A stretch of 64,000 bases of DNA from Bacteroidota bacterium (GCA_019637975.1 JAHBUR010000008.1:1-64000); one strand, 5' to 3'. Positions 22,069-29,182 are shown, numbered from the stretch's first letter. Notes: generated from the sequence alone by a model not told the origin. Numbers and translations: made by a program.

Positions 22069-23580
22069 ATGCCAACACTTGCAGCAATTGATGTCGGCTC
22101 CAACGGCATCCGCCTTATCGTCGGAAAGGTGAACGGCGACCGCAACATGCAGATTCTGGAAAACATCCGTGAAGCCGTGCGGCTCGGGCAGGATGTGTTC
22201 ACAAAATCCGTCATCGCCGAAGAGACCATCGACAAGGCGGCCGAGGCGTTCGCCCGTTTCAAATCCGTAATTGCCGCGCATGACGTGAAGTGGACGAAAG
22301 CCATTGCCACGAGTGCCGTGCGGGAAGCACAGAACAAGGACTTGTTTGTTGACAGGATGGAGCAAGCAAGCGGCATCACGATCAATGTCGTTGACGGAGA
22401 AGAAGAAGCTGTTCTCATTCATCTTGCCGTTGCATCGAAGATCAACCTGAAAAACAAGCGCGCTATCCTCGTCGATATAGGGGGCGGCAGTACGGAAGTG
22501 ACCCTTGTTGCTGACGGGCAGATTCTCTCGACGGAAAGTTACAAGATGGGAACCGTGCGCCTGTTGCAGTTGCTGGAGGAAAGAAAACACGGCGAGAAAA
22601 AATTCGGCCAGCTTGTGCGTGAGTACGTCGACGCCACACAGAAGAGAATGAAGAAGGAACTCGGCGCCGAGGAAATCGATGTGTGCGTAGGAACGGGCGG
22701 AAATATCGAGGCGCTCGGCGCGTTGCGCGTGCAACTGTTCGACAAGGAACGAAGCGACGTTGTACAGGCTGATGAACTTGATACGCTGGTCAAGAAACTT
22801 CAAAGCTTGACGTACGAAGAACGCATCCAGCAATTGCTTTTGCGCCCCGACCGTGCGGATGTGATTGTGCCCGCGTCGATTGTTATCCAGAAGTTGTTGA
22901 AACGCGCGGGTGTGGATGAACTGCAAATCCCGTCTGTCGGGTTAAAAGACGGCCTGCTCATCGACATGATGCAGGAACTGTATGGCGAGAAGAAAATCTC
23001 GTCGCGCGATCAGGTGTTGACGTCGGCATTGCAGCTCGGCCGCAAGTTCTCGTTCGACGAGCAGCATGGACTTGCTGTGGGCCGCTATGCAACTCGTCTC
23101 TTTGACGAAACGCGAAATCTTCACAATCTCCCGATGGAATACCGGCTGCTGCTGGAGGTCGCCGCAATGCTGCATGATATCGGTCATTTCATCAATATGA
23201 TTGATCACCACAAGCATACGCTCTATCTCCTTACAGCATCGCCGGTTATCGGACTTTCGAAGGCACAGATGGCTATTGTCGCAAACGTTGCCCGCTACCA
23301 CCGGAAATCCCTGCCGAAACCACAGCACGAAGCGTACAGCGTGCTGTCATCGAAAGAGCGTGTCATCGTCTCGAAACTTGCAGCGATTCTTCGTCTTGCA
23401 GATGCAATGGACAACGAACATGCGACGAAGGTTGAAGATTTCACCGTTGAGTACAAGAAGCCCAAGTTCATTCTTACGTTGAAGGGCGAAGGCGACCTGC
23501 TGTTGGAAAAATGGGCATTGATGAAGAAGGCGGCAATGTTCGAAGAAGTGTACAGCGTGAAGCTTTCCATTAATGACTAA
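22069..23580 (+). CDS. ppx: Exopolyphosphatase / guanosine pentaphosphatase (Ppx/GppA) with HD-type C-terminal domain
   Basis: Hydrolyses polyphosphate ends or pppGpp. The 503 residues fit the two-domain Ppx length. N-terminal ASKHA motifs are AIDVGSNGIRLIVGKV, the phrase VDGEEEAVLIHLAV and LVDIGGGSTEVTLV. The C-terminal part has an HD-like site MLHDIGHFINMIDHHKHT (about residue 368). The stop overlaps the start of the CHAD gene by 8 bp, and the sixA gene follows, a grouping that points to polyphosphate metabolism rather than only pppGpp. The start is at ATG 22069 without a strong ribosome site. Confidence 0.93.
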   Translation: MPTLAAIDVGSNGIRLIVGKVNGDRNMQILENIREAVRLGQDVFTKSVIAEETIDKAAEAFARFKSVIAAHDVKWTKAIATSAVREAQNKDLFVDRMEQASGITINVVDGEEEAVLIHLAVASKINLKNKRAILVDIGGGSTEVTLVADGQILSTESYKMGTVRLLQLLEERKHGEKKFGQLVREYVDATQKRMKKELGAEEIDVCVGTGGNIEALGALRVQLFDKERSDVVQADELDTLVKKLQSLTYEERIQQLLLRPDRADVIVPASIVIQKLLKRAGVDELQIPSVGLKDGLLIDMMQELYGEKKISSRDQVLTSALQLGRKFSFDEQHGLAVGRYATRLFDETRNLHNLPMEYRLLLEVAAMLHDIGHFINMIDHHKHTLYLLTASPVIGLSKAQMAIVANVARYHRKSLPKPQHEAYSVLSSKERVIVSKLAAILRLADAMDNEHATKVEDFTVEYKKPKFILTLKGEGDLLLEKWALMKKAAMFEEVYSVKLSIND

Positions 23581-24517
23581 GCGAAGTACACAATCGGGAT
23601 CGGGCAAAAAGGCAAACCCGCGGAAACCGCCTTCACGTCGTCTGCCGCGGATCGGTACAATACTGATCGACTCACTGGAACAACGGTGGCGCAAATATCT
23701 GAACGAACTCCGGCGATGCAAGCGGGCGTTTTCCGAGGAAGCCGTTCACGACGTACGCGTCGCAACACGACGGCTGATTTCCACGTTGTTGATCATCAGG
23801 ATTGTCTATCCCGACCGGAATATGCGCAAGATCGAGCGCAGATTGAAACGGTTGTTTGATTCGATGAGCCCGCTGCGCGATGCGCAGGTACAACTTCTTT
23901 CACTTCAGGAGAAGGTGATGGACTATCCAGAGTTGGAGACCCTTCTGACTGTTCTCAAAGTCCGTGAGCGAAACCTGATGGATTCCATCTCACGAAGAAT
24001 CTCGACGATCGATACGATATCGATGGGGAGATCATTTCGCGGACTGAAGGAAGGGCTTCGCCGGCATTTCTCCCGCCCGATGATGGGAGAGATCTGTTGG
24101 AATGCCGTGCTCGGTGCAGCGCTGGGACGTTTCAATGCGGCAGTATGGGGAAAGGAACACAGTATCCCTTCGCGGCCCGCAACAATTCACCGGGCGCGCA
24201 TTGCATTCAAGAAATTCCGCTACACGCTGGAAGCAATCGCCCCGATGCTGCCTGCTGCCGACAAACGTATGTTGAAAGCGATGGATGAGTATCAGACACG
24301 AATGGGAAGCATACAGGATGCTCGAATTTTGAATGACCTCGTAGCCCGCTTCACCCAGCAACGTCCGCCTGCATTGCGCAGAGAACTTGCCGGTCTTCGC
24401 CGCGAGCTGCTTGCCCGGAAGAAGGAATTGATCTCCCACTACGAACAATCGGCAGATGAGTTGTACAGTCTCCGTAAGCCGATGTTGACTTCGAGAAAGC
24501 AAGGAACACGTCGATGA
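23573..24517 (+). CDS. CHAD-domain protein (polyphosphate-associated)
   Basis: A 314-residue protein with a very basic N-terminus and the CHAD histidine helices: EEAVHDVRVATRRLIS (about residue 55), then LFDSMSPLRDAQVQ and later IHRARIAFKKFRYTLEAI (about 205). CHAD domains bind polyphosphate and proteins carrying one locate to polyphosphate granules (family knowledge). It lies between ppx and sixA with overlaps of 8 and 4 bp, so a role at polyphosphate granules is likely. No CYTH domain is attached. Confidence 0.9.
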   Translation: MTKRSTQSGSGKKANPRKPPSRRLPRIGTILIDSLEQRWRKYLNELRRCKRAFSEEAVHDVRVATRRLISTLLIIRIVYPDRNMRKIERRLKRLFDSMSPLRDAQVQLLSLQEKVMDYPELETLLTVLKVRERNLMDSISRRISTIDTISMGRSFRGLKEGLRRHFSRPMMGEICWNAVLGAALGRFNAAVWGKEHSIPSRPATIHRARIAFKKFRYTLEAIAPMLPAADKRMLKAMDEYQTRMGSIQDARILNDLVARFTQQRPPALRRELAGLRRELLARKKELISHYEQSADELYSLRKPMLTSRKQGTRR

Positions 24518-25026
24518 ATCTCTACATACTTCGTCATGCAATTGCCGAGGAGCGCAGTCACGAACACTGGCCCGATGACTCCCTCCGTCCTCTTACAACC
24601 AAAGGAAAGAAACGCATGCATCGAATTGCGGTGGCCATGCGGGCGCTCGGCCTTTCGTTCGATGTCATCTATACGAGCTCCTACACGCGGGCACGGGAAA
24701 CCGCCGACATTGTTGTTGCTGTTTTCAATGCCGGGAAGAAGCTTCGCGAAACCGGGACACTGGCGGTTGACGGCGACCCTGGAGAACTTGTCCGCCTCAT
24801 CAACAGCGCGAAGAACGAATTCGAGAATGTATTGCTTGTCGGACATGAACCGTACCTTGGAGAGTTCATCTCCACTCTTCTTGTCGGTGATTCGAGCCTG
24901 CCGCTGACGATGAAAAAGGGGGGAATTTGCAAACTCAGCGTCGGCAACTTGAAGTACGGAGCCTGTGCATCCTTGGAGTGGCTTCTGCCGCCATCTGTTT
25001 CATCGCTGATCGGGAATTCACGATGA
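24514..25026 (+). CDS. sixA: SixA-type phosphohistidine phosphatase
   Basis: A histidine-phosphatase family member of 170 residues. The catalytic RHA motif is at MNLYILRHAIAEE, and the second conserved block is TSSYTRARETADIV. The VGHEPYLGEF motif carries the second catalytic His. SixA removes phosphate from phosphohistidine; in clusters with CHAD and ppx it may act on polyphosphate-linked substrates (inference). Start and stop each overlap neighbours by 4 bp. Confidence 0.9.
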   Translation: MNLYILRHAIAEERSHEHWPDDSLRPLTTKGKKRMHRIAVAMRALGLSFDVIYTSSYTRARETADIVVAVFNAGKKLRETGTLAVDGDPGELVRLINSAKNEFENVLLVGHEPYLGEFISTLLVGDSSLPLTMKKGGICKLSVGNLKYGACASLEWLLPPSVSSLIGNSR

Positions 25027-25856
25027 AGGTATTTCTCATCACCCTTCTCACATTTCCTCTTCTTCTTCACTCGGAACAGAAAACAGCGGTCAACGCGGCT
25101 CTTCCGGGCTACGATCTCTCCGACAAAAAGCCGCGGCAATTCGTTCTGCCCAACAAACTGGCCGAAGCATCGGGTCTTGCAATGACTGATGATGGACGCC
25201 TGTTTTGTCACGATGACGAGCGGGCTGTTGTGTATCAGATTGACTATTCAAACGGCGCAGTTGTCAAACAATTCTCGCTCGGCAGATTTGGCGTGAGAGG
25301 TGATTTTGAAGATATTGCCGTTGTTGGGAGGTTGTTCTATCTTGTCGAAAGCAACGGCACGATCTATGAATTCCCTGAAGCCGGAAACGGACAGACGGTT
25401 GAGTTCAGAACGTACACAACGCCGTTGACAACAAAGAACGATGTTGAAGGGCTTGAATATGATCCCGAAACACACTCTCTGCTTCTTGCCTGCAAGGAAT
25501 TTCCCGGCAAGGGATATGAGGGACACAGGGCGGTGTACTCCTTCTCACTCAAAACAAAACAACTCTTGCCAGCGCCCCGTTTTCTCATTCCTCTGAAGAA
25601 CATTCGGGGAAAGGAATTCAAACCTTCCGGTATTGCCCGCCATCCGAAAACGGGAACGTTCTTCATCATCGCTGCTCGTGGCAGCACCATTATCGAAATT
25701 TCCAAGGAGGGGAAAATTCTCAGCCAGCAGCCGATTAACAGGAAAGTGAATACACATCCCGAAGGAATCGCTTTTGCGCCTGATCTTACACTCATTCTCT
25801 GCAACGACGGGCAGGGAAAGCGCGGTACGTTAATCCTGTACCCAAAGAAACAATGA
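25023..25856 (+). CDS. Exported beta-propeller protein (SdiA-regulated / YjiK-like)
   Basis: A 277-residue product with an N-terminal signal-like segment (MKVFLITLLTFPLLLHSEQ). It contains repeats typical of the SdiA-regulated propeller family: EASGLAMTDDGRLFCHDDE, then GDFEDIAVVGRLFYLVESNG, the phrase NDVEGLEYDPETHSLLLACK, and KPSGIARHPKTGTFFIIAA. The alternating 'D-x-x-G-L-x-x-D' elements could hold calcium. Its activity is not established. It overlaps sixA by 4 bp (ATGA) and the next gene by 4 bp, placing it inside the polyphosphate-linked unit, so an extracytoplasmic phosphate-related role can be suggested only from context. Confidence 0.75.
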   Translation: MKVFLITLLTFPLLLHSEQKTAVNAALPGYDLSDKKPRQFVLPNKLAEASGLAMTDDGRLFCHDDERAVVYQIDYSNGAVVKQFSLGRFGVRGDFEDIAVVGRLFYLVESNGTIYEFPEAGNGQTVEFRTYTTPLTTKNDVEGLEYDPETHSLLLACKEFPGKGYEGHRAVYSFSLKTKQLLPAPRFLIPLKNIRGKEFKPSGIARHPKTGTFFIIAARGSTIIEISKEGKILSQQPINRKVNTHPEGIAFAPDLTLILCNDGQGKRGTLILYPKKQ

Positions 25857-26494
25857 GGATGACCATGAAGATAAGTTCCCGATTAACGCTGTGTATGTTG
25901 CCAACTCTATGCTTGTTGCTGGCCATGCCATCCCTTGCACAGGACGACTCTTCGCGCGGGCCCTACCTCGGCTTGCACGGCGGCTTATTTAATCCTTCGT
26001 CTCCGAAGTTCACGGATCTGTACTCGACAAGCATTCGTGTTGCATACGGCCTCACATTGGGGTCGCATTTGTCTGAGATGTTTGGGACTTTCGGACGAAT
26101 AACGCGGAGGGAATTTTCAAATGGCACGACTATCATACGGTTGGATCCGACATTCTCCCCCGTCACTTCTCCGCTCGTTCTGCGTATGTGGTTACTCGAC
26201 GTTGGAATAGAGATTCGGCTTGCCCGTTTTGATCTTCTTTCTCTCGGTGCATGCATCGGGGCGACCGTCGGATACGCAAAGGAGGAAATACAGTTGCTCA
26301 ACCGTCAGCCGAAGAATGAGGGATATGGCATAGCCGGAGTGTTCATTGGTGCTGTGGTCGAGCAGAAAATCGCTGGAACACCACTGGCTATTGTGTTGGA
26401 CTTGCATTACAGCAGCACAACCTCAACTCCTGAGCATTACACGAACATCTATGGCGGAACTACATTGCTATCCGAACTGCGGTGCTATTTGTGA
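25853..26494 (+). CDS. Probable outer-membrane beta-barrel protein, unknown function
   Basis: A 213-residue protein with a signal peptide ending at SLAQ (residue about 29). The mature part has alternating hydrophobic strands (GPYLGLHGGLFNPS, then SIRVAYGLTLGSHLSEMFG, LLDVGIEIRLARFDLLSLGA, GIAGVFIGAVVEQ, PLAIVLDLHYSS), like a small outer-membrane barrel. No named family recognised. It overlaps both neighbours by 4 bp, so it is translated as part of the ppx-CHAD-sixA run. Confidence 0.65.
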   Translation: MRMTMKISSRLTLCMLPTLCLLLAMPSLAQDDSSRGPYLGLHGGLFNPSSPKFTDLYSTSIRVAYGLTLGSHLSEMFGTFGRITRREFSNGTTIIRLDPTFSPVTSPLVLRMWLLDVGIEIRLARFDLLSLGACIGATVGYAKEEIQLLNRQPKNEGYGIAGVFIGAVVEQKIAGTPLAIVLDLHYSSTTSTPEHYTNIYGGTTLLSELRCYL

Positions 26495-27153
26495 ACAACA
26501 CGGATAGCATAGCCATCATTGCCGCAACGGCAGAATACGTCAAGGCAAAACTCTCGGGCGAAGGTTCGGGGCACGATTGGTTTCACGTTGAACGTGTCTG
26601 GAAGAATGCGCGACACATCGGCACCGAAGAACAGGTTGACATGTTCATCGTCGAACTTGCTGCGCTCCTGCACGACATCGCCGATTGGAAATTTGCCGGA
26701 GGTGATGATTCCGCCGGACCGCGGGAGGCCAGAACATGGCTCGAAAGTCTGAAAGTTGACGAGGAGACGATTGCGCATGTCTGCGACATTATCATGAACC
26801 TGTCGTTCAAAGGGGCCGGAGTGAAGAGTGCAATGCACACACGTGAGGGCATGGTGGTTCAGGATGCCGACAGACTCGACGCCCTCGGCGCTATCGGTAT
26901 TGCGCGGGCGTTTGCCTACGGCGGACATAAAGGAAGCGAGCTTTACAATCCGGACGTGAAGCCGGAATTTCACACATCATTCGAACAGTATAAGAACAGC
27001 CGCGGCAATACGATCAATCACTTCTACGAGAAGCTGTTGCTGCTGAAAGACCTGATGAACACGGAAACTGCCGGAAAAATGGCTGAGCAGCGGCATACGG
27101 TCATGGAAGTGTTCCTTGAACAATTTCTTGCCGAATGGAACGGCACACGTTGA
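26491..27153 (+). CDS. HD-domain phosphohydrolase (YedJ-like)
   Basis: A metal-dependent phosphohydrolase of about 220 residues. Metal ligands appear in GHDWFHVERVWKNA, in ALLHDIADWKF (HD pair) and in the late Asp of QDADRLDALGAIGIARAF, the usual HD order. The C-terminal FYEKLLLLKDLMNTETAGKMAEQR is typical of this subfamily. The substrate is unknown; nucleotides are likely. I chose the GTG at 26491 because it forms a GTGA overlap with the upstream stop; another GTG at 26482 would add three residues. It closes the overlapping run that begins with ppx. Confidence 0.85.
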   Translation: MNNTDSIAIIAATAEYVKAKLSGEGSGHDWFHVERVWKNARHIGTEEQVDMFIVELAALLHDIADWKFAGGDDSAGPREARTWLESLKVDEETIAHVCDIIMNLSFKGAGVKSAMHTREGMVVQDADRLDALGAIGIARAFAYGGHKGSELYNPDVKPEFHTSFEQYKNSRGNTINHFYEKLLLLKDLMNTETAGKMAEQRHTVMEVFLEQFLAEWNGTR

Positions 27154-27172
27154 CAAACGCGGAGTAACAACA

Positions 27173-29182
27173 ATGAGAAATCTCTCAATCATCGTTTTTG
27201 CAATTTCCGCGACTGCGTGGGCGCAACAACCTGCGCGAGACTATCCGGTGACGGCGGTTCCGTTTACCCAGGTTCGCGTCTCCGATGCATTCTGGGCGCC
27301 TCGCATTGAAATGAACCGCAGTGTTACCATTCCGTCGTCGTTCGATCACTGCAGAACAACCGGGCGGATCAAGAATTTTGAGATGGCGGCTGAACGAAAG
27401 GGGAAATTCCTCACGAAGTATTCATTCGACGATACCGACATTTACAAGACTCTTGAAGGCGCTTCGTACGCGCTGTCTACACATCCCGACAAGCATCTTG
27501 ATGCATATCTTGACAGTCTTATTGAATTGATCAGTCGGGCGCAGGAACCTGATGGCTATTTGTTCACCGAGCGTACGATGGATCCGGTCAACACAAGCAA
27601 GCGCATCGGATCGGAACGGTGGGTGAATGAACGGCTGCACAGTCACGAGTTGTACAACGCGGGACATTTGTACGAAGCCGCGGCAGCACATTTCCTCGCG
27701 ACGGGCAAACGTTCTCTGCTGGGTATCGCCCTCAAGAACGCGGATCTTATTGATGCAACATTCGGGCCCGGCAAGCGGCGCGTTGCACCCGGTCATCAGG
27801 TGATTGAGATGGGCCTCGCCAAACTCTATCGCATTACGGGAGACGAAAAGTATCTCCGACTTGCCAGGTTCTTTCTTGATGAGAGGGGCAGAGTCCCCTA
27901 TGACACGACCAGCAAGGATGTTTTCCGAAACGGCAAATACTGGCAGGATCATAAGCTGGTTGTCGATCAGAAGGAAGCGGTCGGGCATGCTGTTCGCGCC
28001 GTGTACATGTACAGCGCTATGGCCGATATCGCCGCACTGACGGGAGATGCATCATATATCCGCGCCATTGATACGTTGTGGGAGAATGTTGTCGGAAAGA
28101 AAATGTATGTACACGGCGGCATCGGCGCGGCAGGTGACGGCGAGCGTTTTGGCGAGAACTACGAACTGCCGAATCGTGATGCATACTGCGAAACCTGTGC
28201 TGCTATCGGCAATGTGTTCTGGAATCACCGCATGTTCCTGCTTCACGGCAACGCGAAGTACATCGATGTGTTGGAACGGATTCTCTACAACGGATTGATT
28301 TCGGGTTTCGGGCTGGATGGAAAGACATTCTTCTACACCAACGCAATGCAAATCAGCAAACACTACCGCCATCCCGATATTGAACTTTCGCGCTCGACGT
28401 GGTTTCCTTGCTCGTGCTGCCCCACGAATATCACACGCTTCGTCCCATCGATTCCGGGATACATTTTTGCGCAAAAGGAGAAGAACATTTATGTGAATTT
28501 GTTCGTGTCAGGCGAAACGGAGATCTCCCTCCCGAACGGCGTTCGCGTTGCGTTGAAACAAGAGACGAACTATCCGTGGAACGGAAAGGTGAGAATCGCA
28601 ATCAACACCGGGAAGTCGGCGCGGTTTTCAGTGAATATCCGTATTCCCGGATGGCTTTCCCGGCCGGTTCCGTCCGATTTGTACAGCTATCAATCAAAAC
28701 GGACAGCTTCCTATTCGCTGACAGTGAACGGTTCAACGGCGACAGTAGAAGCAAAAGACGGGTACGCAATTCTTGATCGTGAATGGAAGAAGAATGATGT
28801 GGTGGAAATAGATTTTCCAATGAACATCGAGCGCATGGTATCGCACCCGAATCTCAAAGAGAATTCGGGTAAAGTTGCCCTGCAACGCGGGCCGCTTGTG
28901 TATTGCGCGGAATGGGTTGACAACGGTGGACTGACAAGCAACTTGTTGTTACCGGACGACACGGAGTTGAAGGCGGAATTCCGCCTTGATTTGCTCAACG
29001 GAGTGATGACGCTTTCCAGCGAAGTCCCGGCATTTGTTCTCGGGAAAGACGGCAAAAGTGTAACGACGGAGCGGCAACAGTTTGTCGCAATTCCCTACTA
29101 TGCGTGGGCGCATCGGGGAGAGGGAGAAATGAATATCTGGCTGCCGCGAGCTCTTACGGGGATAGAAATCATTAATCATTGA
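27173..29182 (+). CDS. Secreted GH127-family glycoside hydrolase (beta-L-arabinofuranosidase-like)
   Basis: About 669 residues with a signal peptide ending at AWAQQ. It matches the GH127 (formerly DUF1680) layout: FWAPRIEMNRSVTIP at the N-terminus, an alpha/alpha barrel with HELYNAGHLYEAAAAH, the catalytic region NRDAYCETCAAIGNVFW and the metal-site cysteines in FPCSCCPTNITRF, then a beta-sandwich C-terminus. GH127 enzymes release beta-L-arabinofuranose; the exact substrate cannot be read here. A GGAG site 9 bp before the ATG at 27173 supports the start. It follows the HD gene by 19 bp. No transporter or other sugar gene adjoins it. Confidence 0.87.
   Translation: MRNLSIIVFAISATAWAQQPARDYPVTAVPFTQVRVSDAFWAPRIEMNRSVTIPSSFDHCRTTGRIKNFEMAAERKGKFLTKYSFDDTDIYKTLEGASYALSTHPDKHLDAYLDSLIELISRAQEPDGYLFTERTMDPVNTSKRIGSERWVNERLHSHELYNAGHLYEAAAAHFLATGKRSLLGIALKNADLIDATFGPGKRRVAPGHQVIEMGLAKLYRITGDEKYLRLARFFLDERGRVPYDTTSKDVFRNGKYWQDHKLVVDQKEAVGHAVRAVYMYSAMADIAALTGDASYIRAIDTLWENVVGKKMYVHGGIGAAGDGERFGENYELPNRDAYCETCAAIGNVFWNHRMFLLHGNAKYIDVLERILYNGLISGFGLDGKTFFYTNAMQISKHYRHPDIELSRSTWFPCSCCPTNITRFVPSIPGYIFAQKEKNIYVNLFVSGETEISLPNGVRVALKQETNYPWNGKVRIAINTGKSARFSVNIRIPGWLSRPVPSDLYSYQSKRTASYSLTVNGSTATVEAKDGYAILDREWKKNDVVEIDFPMNIERMVSHPNLKENSGKVALQRGPLVYCAEWVDNGGLTSNLLLPDDTELKAEFRLDLLNGVMTLSSEVPAFVLGKDGKSVTTERQQFVAIPYYAWAHRGEGEMNIWLPRALTGIEIINH

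Follow-up and report, generated by a model that had tools for sequence, protein, structure and literature searches.

A putatively exported beta-propeller kept beside polyphosphate genes in a Bacteroidota genome points to a possible link between a phosphate store and the cell surface

The stretch of DNA analysed here (the window, 64,000 nucleotides of a Bacteroidota bacterium, GCA_019637975.1 JAHBUR010000008.1:1-64000) lies on contig C8 of a draft genome of 4.25 Mb in 68 contigs, and the closest named relative among the matches is CHB1, an uncultured Chlorobi/Ignavibacteria assembly whose propeller is 84-85% identical. Six open reading frames run along its plus strand from 22069 to 27153 with successive overlaps of 8, 4, 4, 4 and 4 bp, exactly as a preliminary description had given them. 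These are: ppx (22069-23580), for a Ppx/GppA phosphatase of the exopolyphosphatase family with an HD-like domain III; a gene for a CHAD protein, a helical polyphosphate-binding domain (23573-24517); sixA, for a histidine phosphatase of the SixA family (24514-25026); the gene of a putatively exported SdiA-regulated (YjiK-type) beta-propeller, starting with ATG (25023-25856); a gene, species-specific here, for a 213-aa protein, apparently exported and possibly a barrel-like outer-membrane protein (25853-26494); and, starting with GTG, one for a YedJ/PRK10119-like HD phosphohydrolase (26491-27153). The labels ppx, CHAD, SdiA-regulated and HD in that description are borne out by matches over the Pfam cut-offs, and sixA by one over the NCBIfam cut-off.

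The first three genes belong to the biology of polyphosphate, which is usually regarded as a cytoplasmic granule store. The ppx product reaches 171 bits with PF02541 (Ppx-GppA) and 94.5 bits with PF21447 in Pfam, and is under the TIGR03706 exopolyphosphatase cut-off (239.6 against 307 bits), so that this Ppx/GppA protein would be either an exopolyphosphatase or a guanosine pentaphosphatase. The CHAD protein, the sole one in the genome, scores 107.3 bits with PF05235 (cut-off 25.6), and the polyphosphate enzyme in the same operon-like run is the Ppx/GppA gene that it overlaps by 8 bp. SixA passes the TIGR00249 cut-off (85.4 against 74.5 bits), holds the catalytic-type histidine motifs LRHA and VGHEP, and aligns with solved SixA-like chains. 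The suggestion that ppx, CHAD and sixA form a polyphosphate cluster is thus supported, and it is in keeping with what is known of CHAD, which binds polyphosphate and whose stand-alone genes are often found in operons with polyphosphate enzymes (PMC6537752), as well as with a figure legend that places SixA, PPX and CHAD in one region in biomining archaea (PMC10892726). The window shares CHAD and polyphosphate enzymes with these CHAD-centred clusters, and one family of its class, f8, has the three-gene form; in contrast, the exported propeller and outer-membrane proteins of the window run go unmentioned in the excerpted descriptions of those clusters (PMC6537752, PMC10892726).

The fourth gene is the one that gives the run its interest. 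Its product exceeds the cut-off of the SdiA-regulated family PF06977 (35.5 against 21 bits), and the AlphaFold2 model (pLDDT 90) has as its top solved-structure match YjiK of E. coli (3qqz, Z 24.4, 227 aligned residues, rmsd 2.6), followed by glutaminyl cyclases (Z 21-23); among the fold matches listed there is no phytase. The two proteins thus share a family model and a best fold match, although their identity is only about 15%, and to our knowledge YjiK has no link with polyphosphate. The claim that the propeller is exported agrees with the signal-like N-terminus found in the window protein; by a simple N-terminal pattern, 39 of 101 relatives are lipobox-like, 51 signal-like and 11 neither, so that most look exported, many as lipoproteins. 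On an Ignavibacteria contig two propeller genes stand in tandem (L108:2024-2797 and upstream).

The last two genes are less constant. The 213-aa protein, a real open reading frame, had been called barrel-like, an identity that is weak, since its OMP_b-brl (PF13505) score of 21.2 bits is under the cut-off of 28.7; the gene was not found in either sister species, and only weak matches to its product occur, in 4 of 149 genomes of the class. The HD protein scores 35.7 bits with PF01966, over the cut-off, and 98 bits with PRK10119, under the cut-off of 286. Membership of the window HD protein in the family of the HD-PycTM partners seen in relatives is unsupported (best E about 0.003).

The genus is sampled by three species, that of the window, G055 and G276, and the order ppx-CHAD-sixA-propeller is present in all three, the sister propellers being 85% and 62% identical to that of the window. 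In G055 the propeller is followed by the HD gene, with a 4-bp overlap and no barrel gene; in G276 it is followed by a MoxR-type ATPase, and the HD gene sits on a separate contig. All six genes occur in order in one species only, and the six-gene unit of the preliminary description is rejected because the gene order breaks within the genus, the barrel being missing from both sisters and HD being adjacent in one. That description had itself named unrelated downstream genes in relatives as the point of decision: on it the six-gene claim fails and the four-gene claim passes, the kept order of four genes being more than chance. In other genera of the same family, G289 has ppx-sixA-propeller, and G291 carries on one strand ppx-CHAD-sixA, a TonB-dependent receptor-type barrel, a 225-aa lipoprotein-like protein and the propeller; G014 retains ppx-CHAD without the rest, and G039, of family f8, retains ppx-CHAD-sixA alone, so that the three-gene core occurs in the class. 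The conserved parts are therefore ppx and sixA with CHAD, plus the propeller in the family of the window, and what occupies the barrel and HD positions varies.

The association extends well beyond this family. In an unbiased sample of 395 genomes of the phylum, a profile built from nine propellers finds the gene in 56, chosen regardless of ppk1, and ppk1 and sixA were placed in the propeller-bearing genomes by independent searches, linkage being defined as a distance within 11 kb. In 20 of 51 genomes, from 14 genera and 7 families, a ppk1 gene lies within this distance of the propeller, where uniform placement would give 0.42; for sixA the count is 15 genomes (0.38 expected), and for one or the other 27 of the 56. 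Relatedness inflates these genome counts, and the counts by genus and family are still high. The window propeller, with sixA adjacent, falls within the same 11-kb neighbourhood. Among 35 further loci of the class, ppk1 is near the propeller in 11 and sixA in 18, the linked loci belonging to families f4 (of the same taxonomic order as the window genome), f5, f12, f14, f45, f48 and f1. The usual layout in the class is a propeller and then an Omp85 gene, facing ppk1-sixA-HD-PycTM, and the layout of family f16 runs HD-PycTM, ppk1, propeller and phosphoesterase/Omp85. Beyond the phylum, one record from Gemmatimonadota shows ppk1-sixA-DUF4956-propeller-CHAD with a ppk1 on the other strand, and further records show DUF4956-propeller-ppk1, these being individual records without an unbiased denominator. 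Linkage to polyphosphate genes is, then, a strong feature of the propeller family both within the phylum and beyond.

No ppk1 adjoins the run, a point that the preliminary description had proposed to check; the genome has two ppk1 genes, on contigs C9 and C6. In the tree every linked Bacteroidota ppk1 falls in one part, together with the second ppk1 of the window genome: the C6 Ppk1 clusters with propeller-linked copies from f5 and f45, and the C9 copy with a long form that is unlinked. Over its full length, the C6 protein can be aligned with E. coli PPK1, including the histidine-bearing catalytic regions. Separately, sixA lies directly beside a short-form ppk1 in 15 genomes (L069, L155, L157-L161 and others), in 7 of which the propeller is unlinked, and this adjacency suggests a relation between SixA and Ppk1. 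Several Gemmatimonadota Ppk1 proteins, encoded directly downstream of DUF4956 and the propeller, carry N-terminal extensions (L134:3115-6279; L127, L133, L136, L139), and the N-terminus of the Ppk1 at L119:12500-15334 shows a CYTH match that is sub-threshold. The label ppk1 on a further locus, L125, is unsupported by Pfam, and this locus is not to be taken as a Ppk1.

The other recurrent company of the propeller is that of the outer membrane. In 36 of 58 loci, from 28 of 44 genera, the next same-strand gene past the propeller encodes an Omp85 protein and/or a metallophosphoesterase, and each of the phosphoesterase motifs GDNxY, GNHD, HHP and GHxH is present in 24-27 of 29 domains. Between phosphoesterase and barrel, relatives have a domain of about 450 residues with no Pfam match, in which, over an alignment of 29 sequences, K118, D246 and D248 are invariant and R249, H250 and D273-R274-D275 nearly so. 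Its predicted structure (pLDDT 86, pTM 0.87), of an atypical-kinase fold, finds CotH (Z 14.9), CtkA, HipA and PI4KII kinases, the last being the best match (Z 15.0). In the window genome these genes are not directly downstream of the propeller, and are found on the minus strand of contig C27 as three adjacent genes for the kinase-fold protein, the metallophosphoesterase and the Omp85 barrel (L238:6838-10793), in an order that G055 shares and that relatives present as one or two fused proteins. With CotH, HipA and PI4K-type kinases the C27 domain shares the predicted fold and what look like the corresponding K, DxDRH-like and DRD motifs; it differs from them in its exported-type N-terminus and, in most relatives, in the fusion to an Omp85 barrel. 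Another protein, of about 800 aa and without a significant match in Pfam, is found repeatedly next to the propeller/ppk1 neighbourhood, at L098:2313-4718 and in 14 related loci, in families f16, f19, f28 and f34.

If we take the stable elements together, they amount to a core for the use of polyphosphate, attached to an envelope protein which in other genomes is found beside barrels and phosphoesterases. The change of partners is informative here, as in the family of the window the propeller has left ppk1 and Omp85, yet stays with ppx and sixA. The reading that we prefer, tentatively and with slightly less than even confidence, is that ppx-CHAD-sixA-propeller forms an operon for the use of polyphosphate, joined to a component of a phosphate system of the envelope. 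Its four genes would be transcribed together; in the cytoplasm CHAD would bind polyphosphate and Ppx would cut it to phosphate, and SixA would remove phosphate from phosphohistidine, possibly that on Ppk1, given that sixA adjoins ppk1 in many relatives. The YjiK-type propeller, either periplasmic or at the outer membrane, would act jointly with a metallophosphoesterase and an outer-membrane barrel in binding, releasing or sensing phosphate compounds, and capture or sensing at the envelope would thereby be coupled with polyphosphate turnover in the cytoplasm, what is taken up outside being matched to what is stored inside. For the window genome, C27 would supply the barrel and the phosphoesterase as partners, and C6 the partner Ppk1. 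The preliminary description had proposed a link from polyphosphate to the envelope or to phosphate capture: its genomic side stands, in the 20 of 51 genomes with ppk1 and in the barrel and phosphoesterase neighbours that fit an envelope link, and its mechanism would be of the kind just outlined. Several observations weigh on the other side. About half of the propeller loci are without a nearby polyphosphate gene; three Chlorobi-type genomes (G040, G333 and G356, at L068, L168 and L175) retain the propeller with Omp85 and HD-PycTM and yield no match to ppk1, which speaks against strict dependence on polyphosphate, and G078 and G406 likewise lack ppk1; and in the window itself the place of the usual barrel is taken by an unrelated small protein that the sisters lack.

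The strongest of the other explanations, unlikely as we judge it, is that these genes have in common only their regulation by phosphate starvation, propeller, barrels and phosphoesterase serving to scavenge and ppx, CHAD and sixA to store, with neither physical contact nor signalling among them. This would account well for partners that vary (Omp85, TonB-dependent receptor, small barrel, HD, DUF4956) around a constant theme, for the PHO4 transporter in one locus, and for orientations that differ, being convergent in f5, f14 and f45; it accounts less well for the four-base overlaps and the recurrent direct adjacency of propeller to barrel or to ppk1, which suggest a coupling closer than that of a shared regulon.

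It could also be that the propeller belongs to an outer-membrane machine of kinase-fold protein, phosphoesterase and Omp85, to which the polyphosphate genes would be hitch-hikers or a frequent and dispensable supplement. That Omp85 or phosphoesterase is the commonest direct neighbour of the propeller, and that some genomes retain part of the machine without ppk1, are both to be expected in such a case; that in the genus of the window and two more genera of the family the propeller stands outside the machine and with ppx and sixA is not, and we hold this explanation to be improbable.

A more ambitious reading, to which we give very little credit, would be an outer-membrane phosphorylation coupled to polyphosphate, in which the exported kinase-fold/Omp85 fusion would phosphorylate, the metallophosphoesterase would balance it and the propeller would organise them, the polyphosphate of the second Ppk1 being a direct or indirect source of phosphate beyond the cytoplasm, a place in which ATP is lacking. 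It is just as doubtful that the propeller is a phytase-like enzyme freeing phosphate from organic phosphates for storage. The invariant acidic residues of the propeller, its weak Phytase-like match beside the SdiA-regulated one, a relative (L138) that does pass the Phytase-like cut-off (33.5 against 27.6 bits), and the calcium-dependent nucleotidase propeller 1s18 among the fold matches (Z 15.6) might be brought forward for it; yet the window protein stays under that cut-off (PF13449, 20.5 against 27.6 bits), 1s18 is tied with many unrelated propellers, and the nearest folds are YjiK and glutaminyl cyclases. A phytase identity for the window propeller is thus unsupported, and the comparison with phytases that had been proposed leaves the SdiA-regulated assignment in place and the phytase likeness weak. 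Finally, mere crowding of operons in a compact genome, for which the short gaps to the following GH127, peptidase and 172-aa genes on the same strand might speak, is hardly credible against 20 linked genomes where 0.42 were expected, spread over 7 families and arranged in varied ways.

The recurrent neighbourhood points, then, to an undescribed link from a phosphate store to the cell surface. In the open-access literature we found no description of a link between propeller, polyphosphate and envelope, subscription papers being mostly outside the search, so that this absence is no proof of novelty; within the same literature no paper joins SdiA-regulated with polyphosphate kinase or DUF4956 with polyphosphate, and Omp85 with metallophosphatase gave one unrelated plastid paper only. 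If the link is true, polyphosphate would have a part in how the envelope handles phosphate in Bacteroidota, Gemmatimonadota and other groups, a widespread and uncharacterised propeller family would receive its first functional context, SixA would have a testable role beside Ppk1, and an unannotated, apparently exported kinase-fold domain would be brought to notice.

As to the limits of the run, position 27153 is no natural end of the same-strand series. Scans for promoters (6 promoter-like sites, against 8.0 in shuffled sequences) and for terminators were uninformative over the run. Eighteen bp past the HD stop begins, with ATG, a plus-strand gene for a GH127 family glycoside hydrolase (27172-29182; PF07944, 368 bits), probably outside the polyphosphate/propeller system, after which come, co-directionally and spaced by 18-21 bp, an M50 peptidase gene (29201) and a 172-aa gene (29927). 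The GH127 protein also scores 464 bits against the aceric acid hydrolase model, whose cut-off is 950.

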